DNA of 64,000 nucleotides. It comes from Halohasta salina. GTDB lineage: Archaea > Halobacteriota > Halobacteria > Halobacteriales > Haloferacaceae. The stretch spans positions 124,001 through 188,000 of the forward strand of contig NZ_JAMZIE010000004.1 of NCBI RefSeq assembly GCF_024178165.1. The letters run 5' to 3'. Both the position numbers and the translations under genes were made by a program. The notes below the pieces were generated by a model. The model saw only the letters and a program-made list of their open reading frames with translations, did not search any database and had not been told where the DNA came from. Below are positions 4,333 through 35,609 of the stretch, piece by piece (the first letter of the stretch is position 1; each line of letters begins with the position of its first letter).

Positions 4333-4336
4333 ATGA
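4313..4336 (+). other. Seven-codon leader mini-ORF overlapping the cetZ start
   Basis: ATG at 4313 opens a frame encoding MARGENV. Its TGA (4334-4336) overlaps the cetZ ATG (4333-4335) as ATGA. A Shine-Dalgarno-like AGGGGAG (4319-4325) inside it is placed for cetZ. A ribosome starting on the leaderless mRNA end could terminate and restart on cetZ. It is too short for family evidence; the reading is inference from layout. Confidence 0.45.
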
Positions 4337-5511
4337 AACTCGCAATGATCGGCTTCGGCCAGGCCGGGGGTAAGATCGTCGATCGATTCCTCGAGTACGA
4401 CGCCGAAACCGGGTCCAACATCGTTCGGGCGGCCGTCGCGGTCAACTCCGCGAAGGCCGACCTCATGGGGTTACAGCATATCCCGGAAGAAAACCGTGTG
4501 CTCATCGGCCAGTCGCGGGTCAAAGGCCACGGTGTCGGGGCGGACAACGAGCTCGGCGCGGAGATCGCCGAGGAGGACATCGACGAGATCCAGGGTTCGA
4601 TCGACTCCATTCCGGTCCACGAAGTCGACGCCTTCCTCGTCGTCGCGGGTCTCGGTGGCGGCACCGGCTCCGGCGGCGCGCCCGTGATCGCCAAACACCT
4701 CAAGCGGATCTACACCGAGCCCGTCTACGGGCTGGGCGTCCTGCCGGGCAGCGACGAGGGTGGGATCTACACCCTCAACGCCGCCCGATCCTTCCAGACG
4801 TTCGTCCGCGAGGTCGACAACCTGCTCGTCTTCGATAACGACGCCTGGCGGAAGACCGGCGAGTCCGTCCAGGGCGGCTACGCGGAGATCAACGAGGAGA
4901 TCGTCCGCCGGTTCGGGATCCTCTTCGGGGCCGGCGAGGTCAGACAGGGCCAAGAAGTCGCCGAGTCGGTCGTCGACTCCTCGGAGATCATCAACACCCT
5001 GTCGGGTGGCGGGGTCTCGACGATCGGCTTCGCCGAAGAGGAGGTCGAGGAGGCCTCGACTGGCGGGCTGCTCTCGCGGTTCCGCGGCGACGAGGGCACC
5101 GACGACCTCGACAGCGCCAACACGACAAACCGGATCACGAGTCTGGTCCGGAAGGCGGCGCTCGGCCGACTGACGCTGCCGTGTGAGATCGACGGCAGCG
5201 AGCGGGCGCTGGTCGTGCTGGCCGGGCCGACGAACTACCTCAACCGGAAAGGTATCGAGCGCGGCCGGAAGTGGCTCGAAGAGGAAACCGGCAGCATGGA
5301 GGTCCGTGGCGGCGACTACCCGATCGACGGCTCCGGACGCGTTTCGAGTGTCGTCCTCCTGTCGGGCGTAACGAACGTCCCCCGGATCAAGGAACTCCAG
5401 CAGGTCGCCATCGAGGCACAGGAGAACATCGACGAGATCCGCAACGAGAGCGAGGACAACCTCGATTCGCTGGTCAACGAGGACAGCGACGAGCTCGAAT
5501 CGCTGTTCTGA
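4333..5511 (+). CDS. cetZ: CetZ tubulin-superfamily cell-shape protein
   Basis: CetZ proteins are GTP-dependent haloarchaeal tubulin homologues that polymerise under the membrane and control cell shape and motility. The 392-residue protein opens with MKLAMIGFGQAGGK, the first nucleotide loop, and has the tubulin signature GGGTGSG at residues 108-114, then the CetZ-typical GLGVLPGSDEGG. The acidic C-terminal tail (from about residue 360) suits a partner-binding region. The neighbouring F420 genes match the context I recall for a CetZ locus in other haloarchaea. A longer frame upstream is rejected because its residues are un-haloarchaeal; an in-phase Shine-Dalgarno and the ATGA overlap with a mini-ORF support this ATG. 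Confidence 0.93.
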   Translation: MKLAMIGFGQAGGKIVDRFLEYDAETGSNIVRAAVAVNSAKADLMGLQHIPEENRVLIGQSRVKGHGVGADNELGAEIAEEDIDEIQGSIDSIPVHEVDAFLVVAGLGGGTGSGGAPVIAKHLKRIYTEPVYGLGVLPGSDEGGIYTLNAARSFQTFVREVDNLLVFDNDAWRKTGESVQGGYAEINEEIVRRFGILFGAGEVRQGQEVAESVVDSSEIINTLSGGGVSTIGFAEEEVEEASTGGLLSRFRGDEGTDDLDSANTTNRITSLVRKAALGRLTLPCEIDGSERALVVLAGPTNYLNRKGIERGRKWLEEETGSMEVRGGDYPIDGSGRVSSVVLLSGVTNVPRIKELQQVAIEAQENIDEIRNESEDNLDSLVNEDSDELESLF

Positions 5512-26019: not shown

Positions 26020-29000
26020 ATGAATTTGCCGGACAGGATCTTCGCAGTCGGTGGGGCTGGGAAGGCGATTACCTACGAGTTGCTGCGAGCAACGTGGGTA
26101 CAGGAGGCAGTGCTGCGCCCCCGGCCGAACCCGCGGACACTGACGGTGACGATCATCGATACGGCCGAAGAGGAGGAGAACCGTGATCTGGAACGGATCT
26201 CGGAGATCGAAGCCGAGATACAGGAGACGAAAAACCGGCTGCGAGAGGAACACTCCGGCCGGCCTGGCGAGATCGACATCACCTATCTTCCGCTGACAAA
26301 GAACATCCAGCTCCACGATCAGAACGACCTGATCGGCGAGTCGACGGTCCCCCGGATCGCCTCCGGCGTCGGGATGGAGGAGGAAAACTGGTGGCTCAAG
26401 CCGGAGTTCATCAACGAGAACCTGAACTTCGCTACGGGTGTCGTCCGCAAACGCGGGCTGGGAAAGGGGCTGTACTACAAGGCCTACGCCGAGGACGACG
26501 ACGTCCGGACCTCGATCGACCTTCCCCGACGTGGCAAAGTCGCGGTCATCGCCGGCCTCGGTGGAGGGACCGGTTCGGGCGTGTTCATCGATCTGGTGAA
26601 GGACCTCAAACAGACCCAGCGGACCGCCGAAATAACGCTGTTCGGGGTGCTCCCGAACGACGACGAGGGCGAGGCCGAGAACGCAAACGCGCACGCGACA
26701 CTCTCGGAGCTTGAGCATCTGAGCCTCAACGGCGAGGATCTGTTCAAAGACCGGGTGCTGATCCCGATCGATCCGACCGGCTTCGGCGGCAAGAAAGCCA
26801 ACATCCTCCAGAGTTCCGACGCGTTGATCGAGTTCGACCGGGCGGCGATCTACCTCATCGCCTCCTACTACAACATGATGGATATGGAGGACCCCTTCGC
26901 CGATACGCCGTCGTTCGCGCCGTTCATCATCGGCGTGCCGCAGGTCGTCCGGTACAACGTCGACGCGATACAGGAGGCCAAATCCGTCATCAGGGAACTG
27001 CTCACCGCCGAACAGGACGCCCTCGAAGCCGAGGAGAAGATCTACACCGAAGTCGACCGGTTCCTCACGAAGGCCTGGAGTCCCGACGGTCCCGAAGGCG
27101 AACTCCACGACTCGGATCTGAGCGACATCGAGAACCGCCTCAACGAGATCGAATCGCTGCTGAACTTCGATCTGTTCTCCGAACTCGACTACGAGTCAGT
27201 CTCGATCTACCGGGATATCATTTCGCAGGCCAAAGCCGAATCCGAGGAGATCGTCGAGCAGATCGAAGTGATCGGCGGCTCGATCCGTGCGGGCACCGCA
27301 CAGATCGGCGACGACGCCGAACAGTTCGTCGACAGCACGGACAAACAGCTCGCCAACGTCATCCAAGACGAACTCAGGCGGCTCACCCACCGGCACACCC
27401 TGCTCGTCCGGCTGCGCGGCATCGACAACACCCACATCGAGAGCACCGTCAGCTACCTGCTCGGATTAGAGGACGAGGGTGTCAGCGCGGGGGTCCGCCT
27501 CAACCAGATCGAGGCGCGGCTCGACGAGGCCGAAGAGCGGAAACAGCACCTCGAATCGGAGCTCGAAGAGGTTTCGGCGGAGCTCGAAGAGCGGCGGCGG
27601 GAGCAACAAGACGAGATCGATCGGCGCGTCGACGACTGGGAGCGGTCGGTGCGGACCGCCTACGAGGAGTACACCGAGTGTCAGTCGATCCCGGTCGACG
27701 GGATCAGCGGCGATCTGGAGGTGGCCCTCGAAACGTTCGCCCGGGAGGTCGAGAACGCAGAGACCCAACAGCAACTCGAAGCGGTAAACGAGGCACAGGT
27801 CCGGGAGGCACTCGGAGAGCTCACCGCGGAGTTCGACCGGATCGGGATCAGCGTCAGCGACATCGAGCGGGACATCAACTCGTCGCTGGCGAACCTCAAG
27901 GACGCCAAGGAATCGTTCCTCACGATGAACGAGGAGGGCGGCACGATCGAGCGGCTCACCCCGTGGGAGACCTCCGCCGAGGAGGACCGCGAAAAGGCCA
28001 AACAGAACTACCGGATGAAGCGGACCCAACTGGGCGATACGGGCGTCTTTTCGATCTCCCGGGCGGGAGACTCGCTGTCGGTTACCGTCGAGTTCGACAC
28101 CCAGACGCTCGGCCGAACGCTCGACAAGGAGGCCGAACAGCGGCGGCGAACGATCCTCAACGAGACACGGAACGAACTCGAAGATCCGCCGGCAGCGGTC
28201 GTCGACGACATCGAGCGGCGGCTGGACAGCACAAACAGCCTCGAAGAGATCACCCGCGACATCGAGGATCTGATCGAGGACGAGGTGCTCGAAACCGACG
28301 ACATCGAACAGCGGCGTGACGAACTGGAGGCGGATCTCAAAGGGACCGAACAGAAAGTCGACCGATTCGACCGGACGGTCGATCTCTTCGAGGAGGCAAA
28401 CGCGCTCCGGGAAGCGTTCGACGACGCGAAGGAAGCCTACCGCGAGTCCCGAGAGGCCTACCGGAAGGATCGGGATTCGACGGCGATGTCGACCGAAAAC
28501 GAGGAGTACAGCTACGTGAAGACGATGCAGCCGAACAACATCCTCCAGCTCCGCGCGGATTCGGATATCAGCGAGAGCAAGCTGTTCAACGACGAGGTCG
28601 AACGGCAGCGGCTCCGCGGCGCACTGGAGGAGCTCGCCAAGAACGCACAGAACCCCAAATATACGGGGATCCGCAAACGCCGGATCAGCAACGATCGGGC
28701 GCGCTACAACGACATGCAGATCGTCGTCGGCGTGATGAGCCGCGCGATGAGCCAGATCGGCGATGTCGCGGATCTGAAAGGCGTGTTTCAGGGAGCCTAC
28801 AACCTCGGACCGGGAAGCGAAAACTTCGCGTCGTTCCCGGTTGAGGCCGGCAACAACTGGGATGTCGGGCTCGGCATTTTCATCGACGGCGTGTTCCTCG
28901 ACAACCTGCGTGCGGAAGTCGAGGCCGACGGCTACCACGCCGGCTACAAGGCCCGCGAGCAGTCCGACGAGACGGAGATCCTCGTCCACCACACCTACGG

Positions 29001-29166
29001 GCTCGATCAGGGTCGGTACGTCCGTCGGAAGGACATCCTGAATATGGAGAATCCGAACGATGTCGAGTTCTATCTCCGCGACGAGATGACGATCAGGGAC
29101 GAACTCCTCGACGAATATCAAGAGACCGTCGAATTCACCGATACCGACACGGAGGGAGCCGAGTAG
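26020..29166 (+). CDS. FtsZ/tubulin-like protein with a very long coiled coil (Tubulin_2-like)
   Basis: The 1,048-residue protein opens with a nucleotide loop (FAVGGAGKAI, residues 8-17) and has the tubulin/FtsZ signature GGGTGSG at residues 181-187, followed by a GVLPNDDEGEAENANAHATL-type helix. From about 340 to 850 it is mostly charged heptads, a long coiled coil; the last 200 residues are a separate mixed domain. It therefore looks like a GTP-binding tubulin homologue fused to a rod, cytoplasmic. From memory, one family of FtsZ-like proteins found by Makarova and Koonin (2010) is linked with a distinct GTPase and membrane proteins. The gene downstream encodes exactly such a GTPase, one base away. 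Confidence 0.85.
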   Translation: MNLPDRIFAVGGAGKAITYELLRATWVQEAVLRPRPNPRTLTVTIIDTAEEEENRDLERISEIEAEIQETKNRLREEHSGRPGEIDITYLPLTKNIQLHDQNDLIGESTVPRIASGVGMEEENWWLKPEFINENLNFATGVVRKRGLGKGLYYKAYAEDDDVRTSIDLPRRGKVAVIAGLGGGTGSGVFIDLVKDLKQTQRTAEITLFGVLPNDDEGEAENANAHATLSELEHLSLNGEDLFKDRVLIPIDPTGFGGKKANILQSSDALIEFDRAAIYLIASYYNMMDMEDPFADTPSFAPFIIGVPQVVRYNVDAIQEAKSVIRELLTAEQDALEAEEKIYTEVDRFLTKAWSPDGPEGELHDSDLSDIENRLNEIESLLNFDLFSELDYESVSIYRDIISQAKAESEEIVEQIEVIGGSIRAGTAQIGDDAEQFVDSTDKQLANVIQDELRRLTHRHTLLVRLRGIDNTHIESTVSYLLGLEDEGVSAGVRLNQIEARLDEAEERKQHLESELEEVSAELEERRREQQDEIDRRVDDWERSVRTAYEEYTECQSIPVDGISGDLEVALETFAREVENAETQQQLEAVNEAQVREALGELTAEFDRIGISVSDIERDINSSLANLKDAKESFLTMNEEGGTIERLTPWETSAEEDREKAKQNYRMKRTQLGDTGVFSISRAGDSLSVTVEFDTQTLGRTLDKEAEQRRRTILNETRNELEDPPAAVVDDIERRLDSTNSLEEITRDIEDLIEDEVLETDDIEQRRDELEADLKGTEQKVDRFDRTVDLFEEANALREAFDDAKEAYRESREAYRKDRDSTAMSTENEEYSYVKTMQPNNILQLRADSDISESKLFNDEVERQRLRGALEELAKNAQNPKYTGIRKRRISNDRARYNDMQIVVGVMSRAMSQIGDVADLKGVFQGAYNLGPGSENFASFPVEAGNNWDVGLGIFIDGVFLDNLRAEVEADGYHAGYKAREQSDETEILVHHTYGLDQGRYVRRKDILNMENPNDVEFYLRDEMTIRDELLDEYQETVEFTDTDTEGAE

Positions 29167-29167
29167 T

Positions 29168-30607
29168 ATGGGGATCGGAGAGTTCCTCGAAGAAAACGGC
29201 GAGAAGGTCAAACTCGGCGTCTACTTCCTCGTCGTGATAGGCGTCGGCGGGATGCTGTTTTCGACACTCGGCGAAGCCTGGCGGCGAGCCGAGCTCGCCA
29301 AACCGCTGATCCTCTCGCTGGATCCGCTCGTCGGAGTGAGCCTCGAACAGTTTGCAGCCGGGATGTTCGGACTGTATCTCGGGCTGCTGGCGCTGATGAT
29401 CGCCGACCCGAAGAAACGCATACAGGGCGTGTTGCTCGGGTTCGGAACCGCAGCCGCACTGGTCGGTCTCCTGTCGGTCGGCCTGTTCATTCCGAACATC
29501 GACTTCGGCGCGAACATCGTCCTGATCGTCGGCGGGATCGTTGCGGGGACGATTCTCGGCGGGGGGCAGCAGCTGCTCGAAGTCAGAACCGCCGACGCAC
29601 TCGAGTTCCGTCGGGCGGCATCCAGACTGTATTTCGTACTGACGGGCATCATCGTCGTCGGGATGATCGAATACCATGTCACGTTCCCACAGTTGCTGGC
29701 CGTCAGTGACGCTGGCGTGTCGGTTCAGAACGTGGGTGGCTCGCTGTCGTTCACGCAGAGTGGGATGTTCGTCAACGGGCTCATGTCAGTCGTGTTCGTG
29801 CTGACTCTCCGCGAATTCGTCCAGTACGATTCCTCCGAAACCTTCTTTGTTCTCGGCCCGCGGGCATCGGGGAAATCGCTGCTGCTGGTGGGGAAGTATC
29901 TGGCCGCCCTCGACGATGCAACCGACCGCAAGGCCGACACGCCGATGAACCCGAGCGGTGACCTCATGGAACTCGTGAGCTCCCTCGATGCGGTCGGCCA
30001 AGACGCCGGCTGGGAGATCCGGTCGACCGCGTCAGCCGACGTCAAAGATCTCAGATTTAACTTCACGAAAGGCCGGGTGTTCCCGAAAAACGTCGAGATC
30101 GAAAGTCTCGATTACGCGGGCGAGTACCTCGACGAGCTGCCGAACGCGCTGATGAGCGCCGATGACGAGATCGACAACTCGACGTTGCGATTGCTCGCAC
30201 AGCGCGTTCGGGACGCCGAAACGCTGATACTCGTGATCGATATGGAACGCTACCATCGAAACGAGTCCCTCGGAATCGAACCGTACTTCGATATCCTCGA
30301 CGAGGCCTCGGGAACAGACGTACTGCTGGTCGCCACGAAGTGCGACATCCTCGCCGAACAATTCCGTGACGAACGGGCGCTCGAAGCCCACCAGTACTTC
30401 GACGAGTTTCAGGAGTACGTCAACAAGAAACTCGTCGCCAACGACCAAACGGTCCGAACGCTCGTCCAGAACACGGCCGGCAACGAGATCCATCCCGTCT
30501 ACTACCAGACGAAGGTCGACGACGCTGGCGATCGGGTGCCGATGCGGGACCCCAACGGGAACGTCATGACGATCGGCTTCGACGAACTACTCAAAAAAGT
30601 GGGGTAA
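29168..30607 (+). CDS. Membrane-anchored GTPase-like protein
   Basis: The 479-residue protein has about six hydrophobic segments in residues 15-215 (about 16-33, 60-79, 87-106, 112-130, 153-168, 198-214), then a cytoplasmic P-loop domain: GPRASGKS (residues 230-237), a G3-like DYAGE (315-319), hydrophobic strand ILVIDMERY, and G4-like TKCD (390-393). The pattern is that of a GTPase rather than a plain ATPase. It begins one base after the tubulin-like gene stop and surely shares its mRNA. Likely role (inference): tie the filament to the membrane and gate it by GTP. Confidence 0.8.
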   Translation: MGIGEFLEENGEKVKLGVYFLVVIGVGGMLFSTLGEAWRRAELAKPLILSLDPLVGVSLEQFAAGMFGLYLGLLALMIADPKKRIQGVLLGFGTAAALVGLLSVGLFIPNIDFGANIVLIVGGIVAGTILGGGQQLLEVRTADALEFRRAASRLYFVLTGIIVVGMIEYHVTFPQLLAVSDAGVSVQNVGGSLSFTQSGMFVNGLMSVVFVLTLREFVQYDSSETFFVLGPRASGKSLLLVGKYLAALDDATDRKADTPMNPSGDLMELVSSLDAVGQDAGWEIRSTASADVKDLRFNFTKGRVFPKNVEIESLDYAGEYLDELPNALMSADDEIDNSTLRLLAQRVRDAETLILVIDMERYHRNESLGIEPYFDILDEASGTDVLLVATKCDILAEQFRDERALEAHQYFDEFQEYVNKKLVANDQTVRTLVQNTAGNEIHPVYYQTKVDDAGDRVPMRDPNGNVMTIGFDELLKKVG

Positions 30608-30613
30608 CCACGT

Positions 30614-32260
30614 ATGTCAATACTCACAGTATACGATTCCGAAGGAAACGAATACTCACCAATTGCTGAGACGGCCGGACGGAGCGAGCGAATCAAGGAC
30701 CTGAACCTCGCCAGCGTGCGGTTCGCTATCGAGCCACAGGAGCGGCGTGTAATCGGCTACTTCAGGGCCAAAGCGACCCAGACGGCACGCTCCGAGCAGT
30801 ATTACGCCGAGTTTACTGCGCGAAACGGGAACGATTCGATCGGCGAGTTTACCGACGCACTCAGGACCAGACTCGACGAGTGGGGCTACATCCTCGACGA
30901 GTCGGCCGACGAGATGGCCGTGTTTCAGCGGCTGGAGGACCCGGGTCGAGCGTCGACGCCGGGAGCGAAAAACGACCTGACGATTCTGCAGGATCTCGCC
31001 ACCAACAGACAACTCACGAACGTCGGCGTCGGCGGTCCGGACGCCGCAGTGGGGTTACTGTCGGAGCTGGCAGACAGTCACTCGGTGGCGATCACGAGCG
31101 CCGAGGCCACCAGCCTTTCGACGTTCGATGTGGCGGTCACCGTCGGACGGTACTCGGGTATCGAACCGCTCGGCGAGACCGAACGTCGGTGGGAACAAGC
31201 CAAACAGTCGCTCCGCGACCAACTGATCAGCGAGGAGATCGACAGCATCAAACAGTCGGTCCAGACGCTCAAACGCGACCACGGACTGTCGGCCGACGAG
31301 ATTAAACGGAAGGTTCCTAGTCTCTCGTCGACCGGGTCGACGGGGCCATCTTCACGCGGGGCGCCCGCCTCAAAGGGCGAGCGTATTAAACGGACGCTGC
31401 TCTCGCCGAAGGTCGGGAAGTACATGTTTATCGGCGCGGTGGTGTTGCTCGTGTTGCTCGGCGGGTTCTACGGGGCGACAACGTTCGGACTGTTGGGTTC
31501 GGGCGGCGATGGCGCGACGATCGGCGGAACCGTGTATGCTGATGGAGAGCCGGCTGAGGGGGTGACTGTCGAACTCACCGGCGACCAACTTGAGAGTCCC
31601 GACGAAACGACCACGAGTGGACGCCTGTTCGGAGTTATCGGCAGCCCCGGCAAGTACGAGTTTACCGGCGTACCGCCGAACGGGACATACGACGTGACAG
31701 CGACCGTCGACGGCGACGAGTACGAAGAGACGGGGGTCGAACCCGGCGAACAACAGGTCAGCTTGGGGACGCCAAGCGAGTCCGATGAGTCAGGCGGAAT
31801 GTTCTCCTTCCTACCATTTGTGGGAGGTTCGGATTCGGGAACCAACGAGACAGAAACGGGCGGTGACACCGCGTCGGGAAATGAAACCGGGGGTGAAGAA
31901 GGATCGGAGGCTGAATCCGATTCGCAAGCCCCCTCAGGAGATAATTCGACCGACGAGTCGGGCAGCGAGTTCACCGCACAGACGTTCAGCTTGCGCGGAA
32001 CGGTCACCGACGCGAGTGGGTTGGAAGAAGATGGAGTAAACATACGTATCGAAAACGAATCACTGCTAGCCGATGAAGACGATGGACGAATACGGGTTAC
32101 CTCCGGTGAACGAGGTGAATACCAAACGGAGCCGGTACTCCAGAACGGAACATATAAATTGGAAGCATCAGTTCCAGTGAGCGAATCGAATTCAGATCAA
32201 GATTACTCCGGGACCGTCGAAATCGCCGGAAATACCACTGAAGACATCCAGCTCGGGTAG
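30614..32260 (+). CDS. Single-pass membrane protein with cytoplasmic head and two outer beta domains
   Basis: The 548-residue protein has a soluble N-terminal part (residues 1-265, ending in a basic linker KGERIKRTLLSPKVGK), one membrane helix (about 269-293), then outside a carboxypeptidase-regulatory-like beta domain (301-380; GTVYADGEPAEGVTVELTGD), a Ser/Glu/Gly-rich low-complexity stretch with Asn-x-Thr sites, and a second beta domain (about 455-548). It would transmit between surface and cytoplasm. It follows the GTPase gene by 6 bases. The 3' third is more AT-rich than the rest. I know no named family for the full protein. Confidence 0.75.
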   Translation: MSILTVYDSEGNEYSPIAETAGRSERIKDLNLASVRFAIEPQERRVIGYFRAKATQTARSEQYYAEFTARNGNDSIGEFTDALRTRLDEWGYILDESADEMAVFQRLEDPGRASTPGAKNDLTILQDLATNRQLTNVGVGGPDAAVGLLSELADSHSVAITSAEATSLSTFDVAVTVGRYSGIEPLGETERRWEQAKQSLRDQLISEEIDSIKQSVQTLKRDHGLSADEIKRKVPSLSSTGSTGPSSRGAPASKGERIKRTLLSPKVGKYMFIGAVVLLVLLGGFYGATTFGLLGSGGDGATIGGTVYADGEPAEGVTVELTGDQLESPDETTTSGRLFGVIGSPGKYEFTGVPPNGTYDVTATVDGDEYEETGVEPGEQQVSLGTPSESDESGGMFSFLPFVGGSDSGTNETETGGDTASGNETGGEEGSEAESDSQAPSGDNSTDESGSEFTAQTFSLRGTVTDASGLEEDGVNIRIENESLLADEDDGRIRVTSGERGEYQTEPVLQNGTYKLEASVPVSESNSDQDYSGTVEIAGNTTEDIQLG

Positions 32261-33249
32261 TGCCGAAAACAACCATGGCAAAGTCGACCACGATCTACCG
32301 GTTCGCCCTCTATTCGATGGGCCTGCTGTCGGTGCTGACGTTACTAACGGTGCTACATCTATCCGGGTTTGTCTCGCTGTCGACACAAACCCTACGAGTC
32401 GTGCAGTTGGGTATGGCGTTCATGCTGTTCGTGTGGCTCCCGAGTATCGTGATTGCTGGTGGGACCCGACTGTACGAGTCGGCGGACTCGACAGCAGACG
32501 ACGAGTCGGCGGTCGACAAACCGGACGCGACGGCCGAGGAGTTACGTGCCGACGCCGACGAGGCGGTCGACGCGGCCGTCGGGGCGAGACGCGACGGCAG
32601 AACCGAAACCGCGATCGAAGGGTACGCCGAGGCGCTGGAGCTGTACCACGCCGCAGCGGCCCAGTCGACCGGCGACACACGTGAGTCGATCGAGGAGACG
32701 ATCGAGCAACTCCAGACCGACCGGGCAGCGCTCCAGTCGATGCAGGCAGCCCAGTCGTCGTTTCGGGAGGCACTGTCGACCGCCGAGAGGAGTTTTCAGC
32801 GGGCGGTCGCTGCCCACGCCGACGACGAGCGGACGCTCGCACGGATCCGCTACCGGCAGGCACGCACTCAGTTCGAGACCGCCCTTGAGGCGCTCGACGA
32901 CAGCGAGACGCCACTGCTGGAGACGCCGGTCGACGTGCCGGTCGAGATCGAAACCACGCTGACAACAAGACGACTCGGTGCGGTGTCGGGACTCGACGCA
33001 GCGGCGGTACAGGCACTCGAAGCCGATGGGATCACGACCGTGGGTGATCTTGATGCTCGAACGGGCGCGGAGACGACACGACCGAAGGCGGTCGACCGGC
33101 TCGAAGCGGCGGGCACGGTCGACCCCGAAACCGCGACGAAGCTGACAGCACTCTCGTGGAGTCACGATGAAGACAGCTATGCGTTCACCGAGCGGGCCGA
33201 GATAACCGACCGACACCAGCGGTCGACGATCGGATTCGAAGCCAGCTAA
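32260..33249 (+). CDS. Two-helix membrane protein with cytoplasmic TPR-like/helix-hairpin module
   Basis: A GTG at 32260 overlaps the previous stop by one base (TAGTG); an ATG at 32275 is an alternative start 15 bases on. The protein (329 or 324 residues) has two membrane helices (about 13-35 and 47-67), then a cytoplasmic part: a helical repeat region (DAAVGARRDGRTETAIEGYA), a coiled region with RIRYRQART, a helix-hairpin-helix-like GLDAAAVQALEADGITTVGDL, and a terminal KLTALSWSHDEDSY. The same module forms the tail of the next protein, so they are paralogous in this part. Function unknown; probably a scaffold in this locus. Confidence 0.75.
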   Translation: MPKTTMAKSTTIYRFALYSMGLLSVLTLLTVLHLSGFVSLSTQTLRVVQLGMAFMLFVWLPSIVIAGGTRLYESADSTADDESAVDKPDATAEELRADADEAVDAAVGARRDGRTETAIEGYAEALELYHAAAAQSTGDTRESIEETIEQLQTDRAALQSMQAAQSSFREALSTAERSFQRAVAAHADDERTLARIRYRQARTQFETALEALDDSETPLLETPVDVPVEIETTLTTRRLGAVSGLDAAAVQALEADGITTVGDLDARTGAETTRPKAVDRLEAAGTVDPETATKLTALSWSHDEDSYAFTERAEITDRHQRSTIGFEAS

Positions 33250-33310
33250 CGGTGAATAAATACACAAATAAATAATAAATATAGAATCTTTTTAAATCGC
33301 ATACGAAATT

Positions 33311-33320
33311 ATTTATAATA
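33311..33320 (+). promoter_or_regulatory. TATA box and ribosome-binding site of the beta-propeller gene
   Basis: ATTTATAATA is centred about 25 bases before the ATG at 33339. GAGGAG (about 33329-33334) lies 4-5 bases before that ATG. The gap 33250-33338 is extremely AT-rich, so this gene can be transcribed separately from the four upstream. Confidence 0.5.
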
Positions 33321-33338
33321 AACGTGCGAGGAGCTGAT

Positions 33339-35609
33339 ATGGATCGCAGTCGGAGGAAGACAGTCACTCGTCGGCAGGCCGTGCGCACGGCCATCGGAGT
33401 CGGGGCCGTCGCCACGGGGATCGCCGGTGGGAGCGAGACGGTCGCGGCCGCGCCCGGCGAGGAGCTATGGGAGTTCGAGACCCGCGGGACCGTCCAATCG
33501 TCACCGACCGTAGTCGGGAATTTCGTTTACGTTGGCAGCGACGATGGCAGCGTCTACGCCGTGAATACGGCGTCGGCAGGCCTCCGCTGGCGGTTCAGTA
33601 CCCGTGGAACCGTCCGCTCGTCGCCGACGGTTGTCGACGGGCTGCTGTTCGTCGGCAGTGACGACAACGCGGTGTACGCCGTCGATACGGAATCGGGCGA
33701 CGAACAGTGGAGCTTCGAGACCGACGGTGCGGTCGGCTCCTCGCCGACTGTCGTCGGCGGAACCGTGTTCGTCGGCAGCGACGACGGCAACCTGTATGCG
33801 ATCGACGCGAGTTCGGGCACCGAACAGTGGAGCGTCGAGACCGACGGCGCGGTCGAGGGATCGCCGGTCGTCCACGACGGTACCGTGTTCGTCGGGAGTA
33901 CCGATGGGAGCCTGTACGCCGTCGAGACGGAGTCGGGCGACGAACAGTGGAGCTTCGAGACCGAGGGAGCGATCCGGGCGTCGCCGACGGCAACCAACGG
34001 GCTCGTCTATTTCGGCAGCGATGACCGGAACGTCTACGCAGTCGACGCCAACTCGGGCAAAGAGGAGTGGAACTACGAGACGGTCGGCGGTCTATCGGCA
34101 CCGACAGTTGGCGACGGTGGGTTCGTCAGGGAGACGCTGTTTATCGGCGACCGAACGGGGACGATCTACGCGTTGAACGCAGAACTGGGTGGGCTGCGGT
34201 GGTCGAAAGACGTGGGAGATGACATCCGAGCGGCCCCGACGCTCGTCTCCGGACGACTGTTTATCGGGAACAGTTCCCTCTACAGTCTGGACGCTAAAAC
34301 CGGCGAAGAAAACTGGAGTACCGATCTGGATCCGACCTCGGCACCGACCGTCTGGAAGGGGACGCTTTTCGTCGGCGGCGGCCGGGAAAGCCTCTATGCG
34401 GTCGACGGGGGGACCACACAGTCGAGTCAGGGGTCACGAGTACTGACCGGCACATTGGGACATCACGGCGAGTGGGCCCACGCCGACCAGAGTATCGAGA
34501 TCGATACCAGCGCGACGAACCAGATGGAACCCGAATCGGAGTCCGAGACGACGTCGAACGACGAGACAGATCCGGAACCAGTCGAGACAGAGACCGGCGA
34601 CGAGCCGCCGTCGACTGACAGTAGTGACAGCGGGGAGGAACTCATCCAGATCGCCACACTCAGCAGTATTGGCCTGTTGGCAACGTTAGTGATCGGCGGC
34701 GGGGCCTATTGGAGGATGCGTGGCTCGGGGACGAACGACTACACCGAACCGGGGACCGATGTCGACTCCGAATCGAAGACGGATGAGTACCCCGAACCGG
34801 AGCCGGGCGATACCGACCAGTCGACCGAGACGGCGGCCGACGACACGCCGGTCGAGTCGGCCGACACGGACGATCCCGAGGCGTTGCGTGCGGATGCCGA
34901 CGACCGGCTCGCCGAGGCGGTCGACGAACGCAACGCGGGCAATCTCGAAGGGGCCATCGAACAGTATACAGCGGCGATCGAACTGTACACCACCGCCGCG
35001 GAGACTGCCGACGAGGAGGCGACCGAAGAGATCGAGGAGACGGTCGCCCAAGCTCGCGAGGACCGGGCGGCCGCTGAGACGGCACTGGAAGCACAGGAAT
35101 CGATCCGTGAATCGCTCCAGCTTGGCGAAGAGAGCCTCCAAAACGCGATCGTCGCACACGCACAGGGAGAGTACACCCTCTCGAAGATCCGCTACCGACA
35201 GGCCCGCGAGGAGTTCGACGCCGCGATCGAGGATGCGGAAGCCAGCGACGTCGACCCCTTCAGCGAGGCGATCGAGGTGCCGGTCGGCAGCGACAACAGC
35301 CTGCCGTCCGAGCGGCTCGCCGAACTGCTCGGCCTGTCGGACGGGACGGCCGAGGCACTGAGCGAGGCTGGCCTCGAAACTGTCGACGATCTCACGACAG
35401 AGGCGACCGGGTCCGACGACGAAACGGGTCGACTGGAAGTCACTGTCGTCACGGAACTACTCGAGGAGGGCACGATCGACGACGAACTGGCGGCCAAACT
35501 GACGGCGCTGTACTGGTGGCACAACGAGGAGACACACACCGTCACCGATCGGACGGCGGTCGAAGCGCGGTACGAACAGGCCGTGGCGGGCTACGAGGCG
35601 AGCCGATAG
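33339..35609 (+). CDS. Tat-exported PQQ-like beta-propeller with membrane helix and cytoplasmic module
   Basis: The 756-residue protein begins with a Tat signal (TVTRRQAVRTAIGVGAVATG; RR at residues 11-12). Residues 45-390 are repeats of the type VFVGSDDGxLYAxDxxSGxExW, a PQQ-like beta-propeller that would face outside. An acidic linker leads to one membrane helix (about 436-461), then a cytoplasmic tail (about 510-756) with TPR-like helices, KIRYRQAREEF, and KLTALYWWHNEET. The tail matches that of the preceding protein. It may be a surface sensor or adhesion part of the tubulin-like locus. Propeller repeats contain no obvious quinone site. Confidence 0.8.
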   Translation: MDRSRRKTVTRRQAVRTAIGVGAVATGIAGGSETVAAAPGEELWEFETRGTVQSSPTVVGNFVYVGSDDGSVYAVNTASAGLRWRFSTRGTVRSSPTVVDGLLFVGSDDNAVYAVDTESGDEQWSFETDGAVGSSPTVVGGTVFVGSDDGNLYAIDASSGTEQWSVETDGAVEGSPVVHDGTVFVGSTDGSLYAVETESGDEQWSFETEGAIRASPTATNGLVYFGSDDRNVYAVDANSGKEEWNYETVGGLSAPTVGDGGFVRETLFIGDRTGTIYALNAELGGLRWSKDVGDDIRAAPTLVSGRLFIGNSSLYSLDAKTGEENWSTDLDPTSAPTVWKGTLFVGGGRESLYAVDGGTTQSSQGSRVLTGTLGHHGEWAHADQSIEIDTSATNQMEPESESETTSNDETDPEPVETETGDEPPSTDSSDSGEELIQIATLSSIGLLATLVIGGGAYWRMRGSGTNDYTEPGTDVDSESKTDEYPEPEPGDTDQSTETAADDTPVESADTDDPEALRADADDRLAEAVDERNAGNLEGAIEQYTAAIELYTTAAETADEEATEEIEETVAQAREDRAAAETALEAQESIRESLQLGEESLQNAIVAHAQGEYTLSKIRYRQAREEFDAAIEDAEASDVDPFSEAIEVPVGSDNSLPSERLAELLGLSDGTAEALSEAGLETVDDLTTEATGSDDETGRLEVTVVTELLEEGTIDDELAAKLTALYWWHNEETHTVTDRTAVEARYEQAVAGYEASR

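Follow-up and report, generated by a model that had tools for sequence, protein, structure and literature searches.

Introduction

The FtsZl1 family of the tubulin superfamily was defined by Makarova and Koonin in 2010 from the haloarchaeal protein Huta_2051, which has 1051 amino acids (PMC2875224). Its published partners are vWA, OmpA and kinase genes and, in archaea, a diverged membrane GTPase. A vWA gene is found in the operons of most of the family and is not needed for a protein to count as a member (PMC2875224). FtsZl1 is a widespread branch of the superfamily, and we found no experimental work on it in the literature searched. Here we describe an FtsZl1 operon in a 64,000-nucleotide window of the Halohasta salina genome (NCBI RefSeq assembly GCF_024178165.1, contig NZ_JAMZIE010000004.1, positions 124,001 to 188,000 of the forward strand; coordinates below are those of the window). 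Five open reading frames on the + strand, numbered here as genes 1 to 5, occupy positions 26020–35609. Genes 1, 2 and 3 are a conserved core unit in which gene 3 is the third part, and genes 4 and 5 belong to an exchangeable set of putative receptors outside this constant core.

Measured against the published family, gene 1 has the same layout of an N-terminal FtsZ-like part, an extended coiled coil and a C-terminal domain, it is of nearly the same size as Huta_2051 (1048 versus 1051 amino acids), and both proteins come from haloarchaea. Gene 2 corresponds to the listed archaeal GTPase partner, and kinases lie near related loci, as they do in the published operons. However, this operon lacks vWA, OmpA and kinases alike, and instead has the gene 3 family together with receptors that carry a module of MIT/TPR-like and helix-hairpin-helix (HhH) parts. 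The absence of a vWA gene from the operon was established with Pfam; one was seen at a single diverged haloarchaeal locus. Gene 3 may be among the unnamed associated families of the 2010 study, whose supplementary list we have not read.

A second set of related systems was described by Kaur et al. in 2020 (PMC7159879). At their centre are TRAFAC GTPases in which the Walker B glutamate is conserved, some with N-terminal transmembrane helices, and these are linked to tubulin-coiled-coil, vWA, HSP70/DnaJ and beta-sandwich repeat proteins in neighbourhoods that the authors term mobile. They were reported from only “a few archaea”, with the tubulin theme confined to firmicutes and actinobacteria. 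The Halohasta operon is like them in its tubulin with a coiled coil, its membrane GTPase with a Walker B glutamate and its outer beta-sandwich domains, and HSP70, DnaJ and vWA are matched as well, at diverged haloarchaeal loci only. A difference is that the tubulin and HSP70 themes, which are separate in bacteria, come together at some haloarchaeal loci. The GAP1 signature of the Kaur systems was not found here: a GAP1 domain was reported neither for genes 1–5 and 21 homologues of gene 3 nor for the partners at the diverged loci. Because of this, and because gene 2 has no significant DO-GTPase match, we did not file the operon under those systems, although it may work like one of them.

Two other haloarchaeal comparisons are more distant. 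CetZ proteins belong to the tubulin superfamily, as gene 1 does, but they form a different family of about 350–400 amino acids with neither a coiled coil nor a membrane GTPase partner. In the Halo_adaptin ESCRT systems (PMC10936438), PQQ-type propellers and Ig-like domains again accompany a protein of the tubulin family, but that tubulin is of the CetZ type, and the systems include a Vps4-like ATPase and a relative of PspA/ESCRT-III. This operon has none of the three.

Results

We searched an order sample of 392 genomes and the window's family of 170 genomes, and extracted 45 full-length gene 1 loci together with their surroundings. Gene 2 lies immediately 3′ of gene 1 in 33 of the 45, in agreement with the membrane GTPase partner proposed in a preliminary description of this DNA, and in 28 it is followed, with tight spacing, by a gene in the position of gene 3. 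The gaps within genes 1-2-3 are mostly −4 to +11 bases (28–33 loci). At named haloarchaeal loci, genes 1 and 2 are together in 27/27 cases and genes 1-2-3 in 25/27. Pairwise distances among homologues of the three genes correlate (r 0.95–0.99, 0/999 permutations, with no species-tree control). Within the window's family, gene 3 matches occur in 20 genomes, every one of which has gene 1, and gene 1 is present in 35 of the 37 genomes with a gene 2 match. The triad is also carried by plasmid pMETEV01 of the halophilic methanogen Methanohalobium evestigatum (L184:10001-16381), where genes for an S-layer protein and TnpB lie nearby. Since homologues with intact frames and the same order are found in dozens of genomes, the five genes are no chance reading. 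The refuting condition named in the preliminary description, a lack of conserved neighbours of gene 1 in every other genome, did not come about, since genes 1-2-3 adjoin in many genomes. Genes 4 and 5 are exchangeable and have kinase-type counterparts elsewhere. We did not find gene 3 named as a third haloarchaeal core part in the searchable papers; supplementary lists were unread, and a prior listing there is possible.

Genes 4 and 5 end in the same cytoplasmic module of about 240 residues (32500–33246 and 34878–35606), with 41% identity between the two copies, which are the only ones in the whole genome. The module runs from an MIT/TPR-like helical part through a middle section with a conserved RIRYRQAR motif to an HhH-like part and a C-terminal tail. 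MIT is matched by 5 of 7 module members (best E 1.9e-7) and TPR profiles match too; the copies in the window score about 19 bits against MIT, under the Pfam gathering score of 30. Strong matches to the module (E < 1e-30) were found in 11 of the 392 order genomes, all of them among the 29 with a close FtsZl1 (Fisher 5e-14, uncorrected for relatedness), and in five further order genomes the matches were weak and partial (E 3e-7 to 4e-6). Because six of the 11 had supplied the model, the fair test lies in the other five genomes. All five have a close FtsZl1 (chance 5e-7, likewise uncorrected for relatedness).

The same association is seen at other scales. Across the whole family, the core is present in 12 of 13 module genomes. 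In four genera of that family (g1, g4, g5 and g24), the species that have the module are those with a close FtsZl1, whereas both are lacking from their listed sister species. No module copy beyond the carriers already known appeared in a phylum-wide sample. Many copies are on other contigs or distant from gene 1, so the association exceeds mere neighbourhood; Halonotius roseus is one species with module proteins encoded apart from its core. We did not find a receptor module that tracks FtsZl1 described in the searchable papers; here too, the supplementary files were unread and could hold an earlier listing.

Most proteins joined to the module are propellers of the PQQ type with a twin-arginine translocation (Tat) type signal and a membrane helix; the others have CARDB domains, membrane hairpins or soluble domains, several of them assigned by eye. 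Three module proteins (L140, L142 and L143) are soluble, with non-surface partners, one HEAT-repeat-like and two PH-like by eye, and the module may therefore take inputs from inside the cell as well. Elsewhere, the accessory position is taken by proteins that combine a kinase domain with CarboxypepD_reg, solute-binding or propeller parts. Kinase and module never occurred at one locus among those examined, though relatedness makes this a weak trend, and there are genomes that hold both at different loci.

Gene 1 (26020..29166) encodes a soluble protein of 1048 amino acids with no membrane segment. It is a member of the FtsZl1/Tubulin_2 family, with a Tubulin_2 score of 38.7 bits against a Pfam cut-off of 27, and its earlier assignment to the Makarova–Koonin FtsZ-like family was correct. 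The tubulin part was thus already known, since the founding member of that family, described in 2010, is a haloarchaeal protein of matching size. The N-terminal part matches solved TubZ/FtsZ chains in a PDB profile search (E 3e-6), and hhalign against haloarchaeal CetZ/FtsZ gave 96% probability over residues 169–229. NCBIfam yielded zero matches for genes 1 and 3. A viral fold library returned only phage tubulins and coiled-coil noise, and none of the phage records matched gene 1. A separate CetZ/FtsZ-family gene lies about 20 kilobases upstream in the window (4333–5511, + strand; GTP-loop match at about 4570–4788).

An AlphaFold2 model of gene 1 built from 45 homologues had a mean predicted local distance difference test (pLDDT) score of 84.9. 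In Foldseek, its top PDB match was CetZ2 of Haloferax volcanii (E 6e-6), and gamma-tubulins, the Odinarchaeota tubulin and FtsZ ranked next. In the GTP-binding half (residues 1–312, 26020..26955), loops T1 (GGAGK), T2/3 (DTA) and T4 (GGGTGSG, residues 181–187, 26560–26580) are conserved over the 45 homologues, and column counts put T1 and T4 as intact family-wide. A helical, coiled-coil part follows (residues 314–820, 26959..28479), in which DSSP of the model places long helices at residues 490–555 and 760–820. The model's secondary structure and a conserved C-terminal block indicate that this extended coiled coil is succeeded by a C-terminal domain (residues 831–1040, 28510..29139), where D961, Y976, H991, G998 and R1003 are invariant in the alignment.

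That second half was not recognised by sequence or by fold search, so the tubulin fold predicted for gene 1 was borne out for the nucleotide-binding half only. Modelled alone, the C-terminal domain reached a pLDDT of 67.6, and this low-confidence model had no significant PDB match in Foldseek; hhalign against haloarchaeal CetZ/FtsZ did not match the domain either. We considered it as a tubulin activation domain and set the idea aside, since the isolated model was poor and tubulin chains at E 4–7 prove nothing. The order of strands and helices predicted for residues 833–958 is compatible with a tubulin C-terminal domain, a likeness that is unproven. No invariant acidic T7 residue was found in the gene 1 columns. 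DSDLSD (residues 364–369), a candidate for a T7 motif like the NxDxxD of FtsZ, is lost in diverged members, and EDPFAD (residues 290–295) was likewise dropped.

Two Halorubrum genomes hold short FtsZl1 paralogues of 560 amino acids (L104:3931-5613 and L105:13216-14904, both on the − strand). They align to residues 1–321 and 816–1048 of gene 1 only, with the whole coiled coil missing. Their GTP loop is damaged (GGATSG), and the same genomes also hold an intact full-length copy. Because both ends are kept without the coil, the coiled coil of gene 1 looks like an arm that departs from and rejoins a single body.

Gene 2 (29168..30607, 479 amino acids) encodes a membrane protein of six helices whose P-loop GTPase domain is cytoplasmic. 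Its motifs GPRASGKS (29855–29878), DYAGE and TKCD are conserved over 34 homologues, and the Walker B glutamate, within DYAGE, is retained in 32 of them. In Pfam, DO-GTPase2 matches 6/34 of these homologues and DO-GTPase1 1/34, all weakly (best E 4e-4). We do not assign gene 2 to the DO-GTPases, because the DO-GTPase2 profile returned noise only from 20 haloarchaeal genomes, with zero matches above the cut-off.

Gene 3 (30614..32260, 548 amino acids) encodes a single-pass protein, as judged from alignment and Pfam. Its cytoplasmic N-terminal domain (residues 1–261) is conserved and matches no Pfam family; it is followed by a membrane helix (residues 262–296) and a variable outer part, which at this locus consists of two CarboxypepD_reg beta domains (Pfam). 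A conserved inner domain with an outer part that varies from locus to locus fits what would be expected of a sensor.

Gene 1 relatives have a patchy distribution, with 42 of the 392 order genomes carrying one, 29 of these close. A Tubulin_2 control search gave no match in Haloferax volcanii. More distantly related haloarchaeal FtsZl1 loci make up a second group, in which gene 1 is followed by a different polytopic protein. At many of these diverged loci, a five-helix membrane protein of about 475 amino acids with no Pfam match (cluster c3; L116:10091-11524 and similar) stands directly 3′ of gene 1, in the place of gene 2. Some diverged loci carry HSP70 and DnaJ fused to CarboxypepD_reg domains, and Halorubrum plasmid p117 groups HSP70, vWA, FtsZl1, the GTPase and a third gene. 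The tubulin and HSP70 themes are combined at L110:9843-15243, L113 and L112/L186. Such HSP70, DnaJ and vWA genes suggest a tie with the conflict systems that Kaur et al. described around GTPases and tubulin (PMC7159879). On a Haloplanus rubicundus plasmid (L185:8102-13441), an FtsZl1 copy is followed by two metallophosphoesterase genes and has a restriction-endonuclease-like gene ahead of it; one class of GTPase conflict systems often has phosphoesterases as effectors.

The gene calls, motifs and membrane layouts of the preliminary description were all reproduced. The first four frames are separated by gaps of 1, 6 and −1 bases, and hydropathy gives 0, 6, 1, 2 and 1 membrane segments for genes 1–5. 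Gene 4 (32260..33249, 329 amino acids, with an alternative ATG start at 32275) encodes a two-helix membrane anchor with the cytoplasmic module. Gene 5 is open from 33324 to 35609 (761 amino acids) and probably starts at ATG 33339 (33339..35609, 756 amino acids), 89 bases past gene 4. It encodes a Tat-type protein with an RR signal, an outer PQQ-like beta-propeller (Pfam match), a membrane helix and the module at its cytoplasmic end, as had been described. The AT-rich gap ahead of it (33250..33338, 89 bases, G+C 0.26) contains a TATA-like stretch, by consensus match only; gene 5 may therefore be transcribed separately from a putative promoter of its own.

On the opposite strand 3′ of the operon are genes for DUF7126, a GMP synthase subunit and CTP synthase. 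A histidine-kinase-like gene lies 5′, in a neighbourhood that is not kept at other loci. The operon is missing beside the same chromosomal flank in three congeners, which do not present a clean empty site, since conservation is limited to one flank (pyrG-guaA-DUF7126). Operon G+C is 0.59–0.65 against 0.65 for the window, and third-position G+C is clearly low in gene 3 alone; we judged this comparison not decisive for a horizontal origin. The operon had no match in the PADLOC library of defence systems.

Discussion

The explanation that we favour, and to which we give roughly an even chance, is that the haloarchaeal FtsZl1 system consists of the constant core of genes 1–3 and exchangeable module receptors that signal to a GTPase-controlled FtsZl1 assembly. 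The outer domains of genes 3–5, a propeller and beta sandwiches, would bind a surface or envelope cue. The resulting change would be relayed across the membrane to the module that genes 4 and 5 have in common, and this module would dock onto the core. The gene 2 GTPase would act as the switch, and FtsZl1 would assemble or disassemble beneath the membrane, with its coiled-coil arm reaching other parts. Because the module is almost confined to genomes with FtsZl1, signals from outside may control a tubulin-type scaffold. A tentative and rather doubtful extension is that one FtsZl1-GTPase-gene 3 core per cell serves several receptors from scattered loci through the one MIT/TPR-HhH module, an arrangement akin to the signalling domain common to chemoreceptors.

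Several points weigh against this signalling explanation. Assembly of FtsZl1 is unproven because the T7 loop and the C-terminal half used in polymerisation were not identified. Beta-propellers of the gene 5 type are common in haloarchaea. The module is missing from 18 of the 29 genomes with a close FtsZl1, so the core does not require it. Conversely, one genome that is 82% complete (G020) has a partial, soluble module-like protein (E 9e-21) and no detected FtsZl1.

The most probable of the alternatives, though still on the unlikely side, is that the operon is a GTPase-centric, immune-like conflict system of the type described by Kaur et al. (PMC7159879). An invader or damage to the envelope would be sensed by its outer or variable parts, the GTPase would be a threshold switch, and the tubulin and its partners would form a multimeric effector. 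The published GTPase-tubulin-coiled-coil neighbourhoods do resemble this operon, and the retained Walker B glutamate in gene 2 homologues, the patchy distribution and the absence of the operon from the same flank in congeners agree with such a role. So do the kinase domains at the accessory position of related loci, the HSP70 and DnaJ-CarboxypepD_reg genes at diverged loci, and the vWA and HSP70 genes beside FtsZl1 and the GTPase on the Halorubrum plasmid. However, GAP1 was not found, the DO-GTPase matches are few and weak, and the operon has neither a recognisable toxin or nuclease effector nor a PADLOC match.

Somewhat less probable is a machine for membrane remodelling or cell shape, the first proposal made for the FtsZl1 family (PMC2875224), in which the membrane would be bent or tethered by FtsZl1 filaments, which the surface proteins would attach to the S-layer, with no signalling. 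Every partner of gene 1 is a membrane protein, and the Halo_adaptin ESCRT systems also pair a CetZ relative with PQQ-propeller proteins (PMC10936438). However, neither ESCRT-III, Vps4 nor other remodelling proteins were seen at the examined loci, and the patchy distribution and accessory turnover are more in keeping with a response system that a cell can do without than with a basic machine for shape.

We also think it unlikely, to a like degree, that gene 1 is a non-polymerising, GTP-regulated coiled-coil tether or adaptor with only the nucleotide-binding half of tubulin, working alongside the gene 2 GTPase in monomeric or dimeric form. Makarova and Koonin raised this idea too, and it would suit the N-terminal limit of the tubulin/FtsZ match, the unmatched C-terminal domain and the missing conserved acidic T7 residue, but all characterised FtsZ/tubulin superfamily proteins polymerise, according to the same authors (PMC2875224), and the order of strands and helices predicted for residues 833–958 is compatible with a tubulin C-terminal domain.

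The system may serve in defence, in envelope stress or in membrane shaping. Earlier publications cover the FtsZl1 family, the GTPase that partners it and the general idea. The preliminary description saw a haloarchaeal form with its own surface parts; the outside-to-inside layout of genes 3–5 stands, but with Huta_2051 on record the haloarchaeal form is not new. The three-gene haloarchaeal core and the receptor module that tracks it turn an old prediction into specific questions, namely whether the module binds the core and whether the state of the GTPase controls FtsZl1 assembly. The haloarchaeal loci are also tied to the bacterial GTPase-tubulin-HSP70 systems, which gives two opposed published functions, membrane remodelling and conflict, a common test bed, and carriers of the three-gene core include several cultured haloarchaea, Halorubrum coriense among them. 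If signalling through the module is confirmed, it would be an outside-in route to an archaeal tubulin-family cytoskeleton, and the module would be a new adaptor domain dedicated to FtsZl1.

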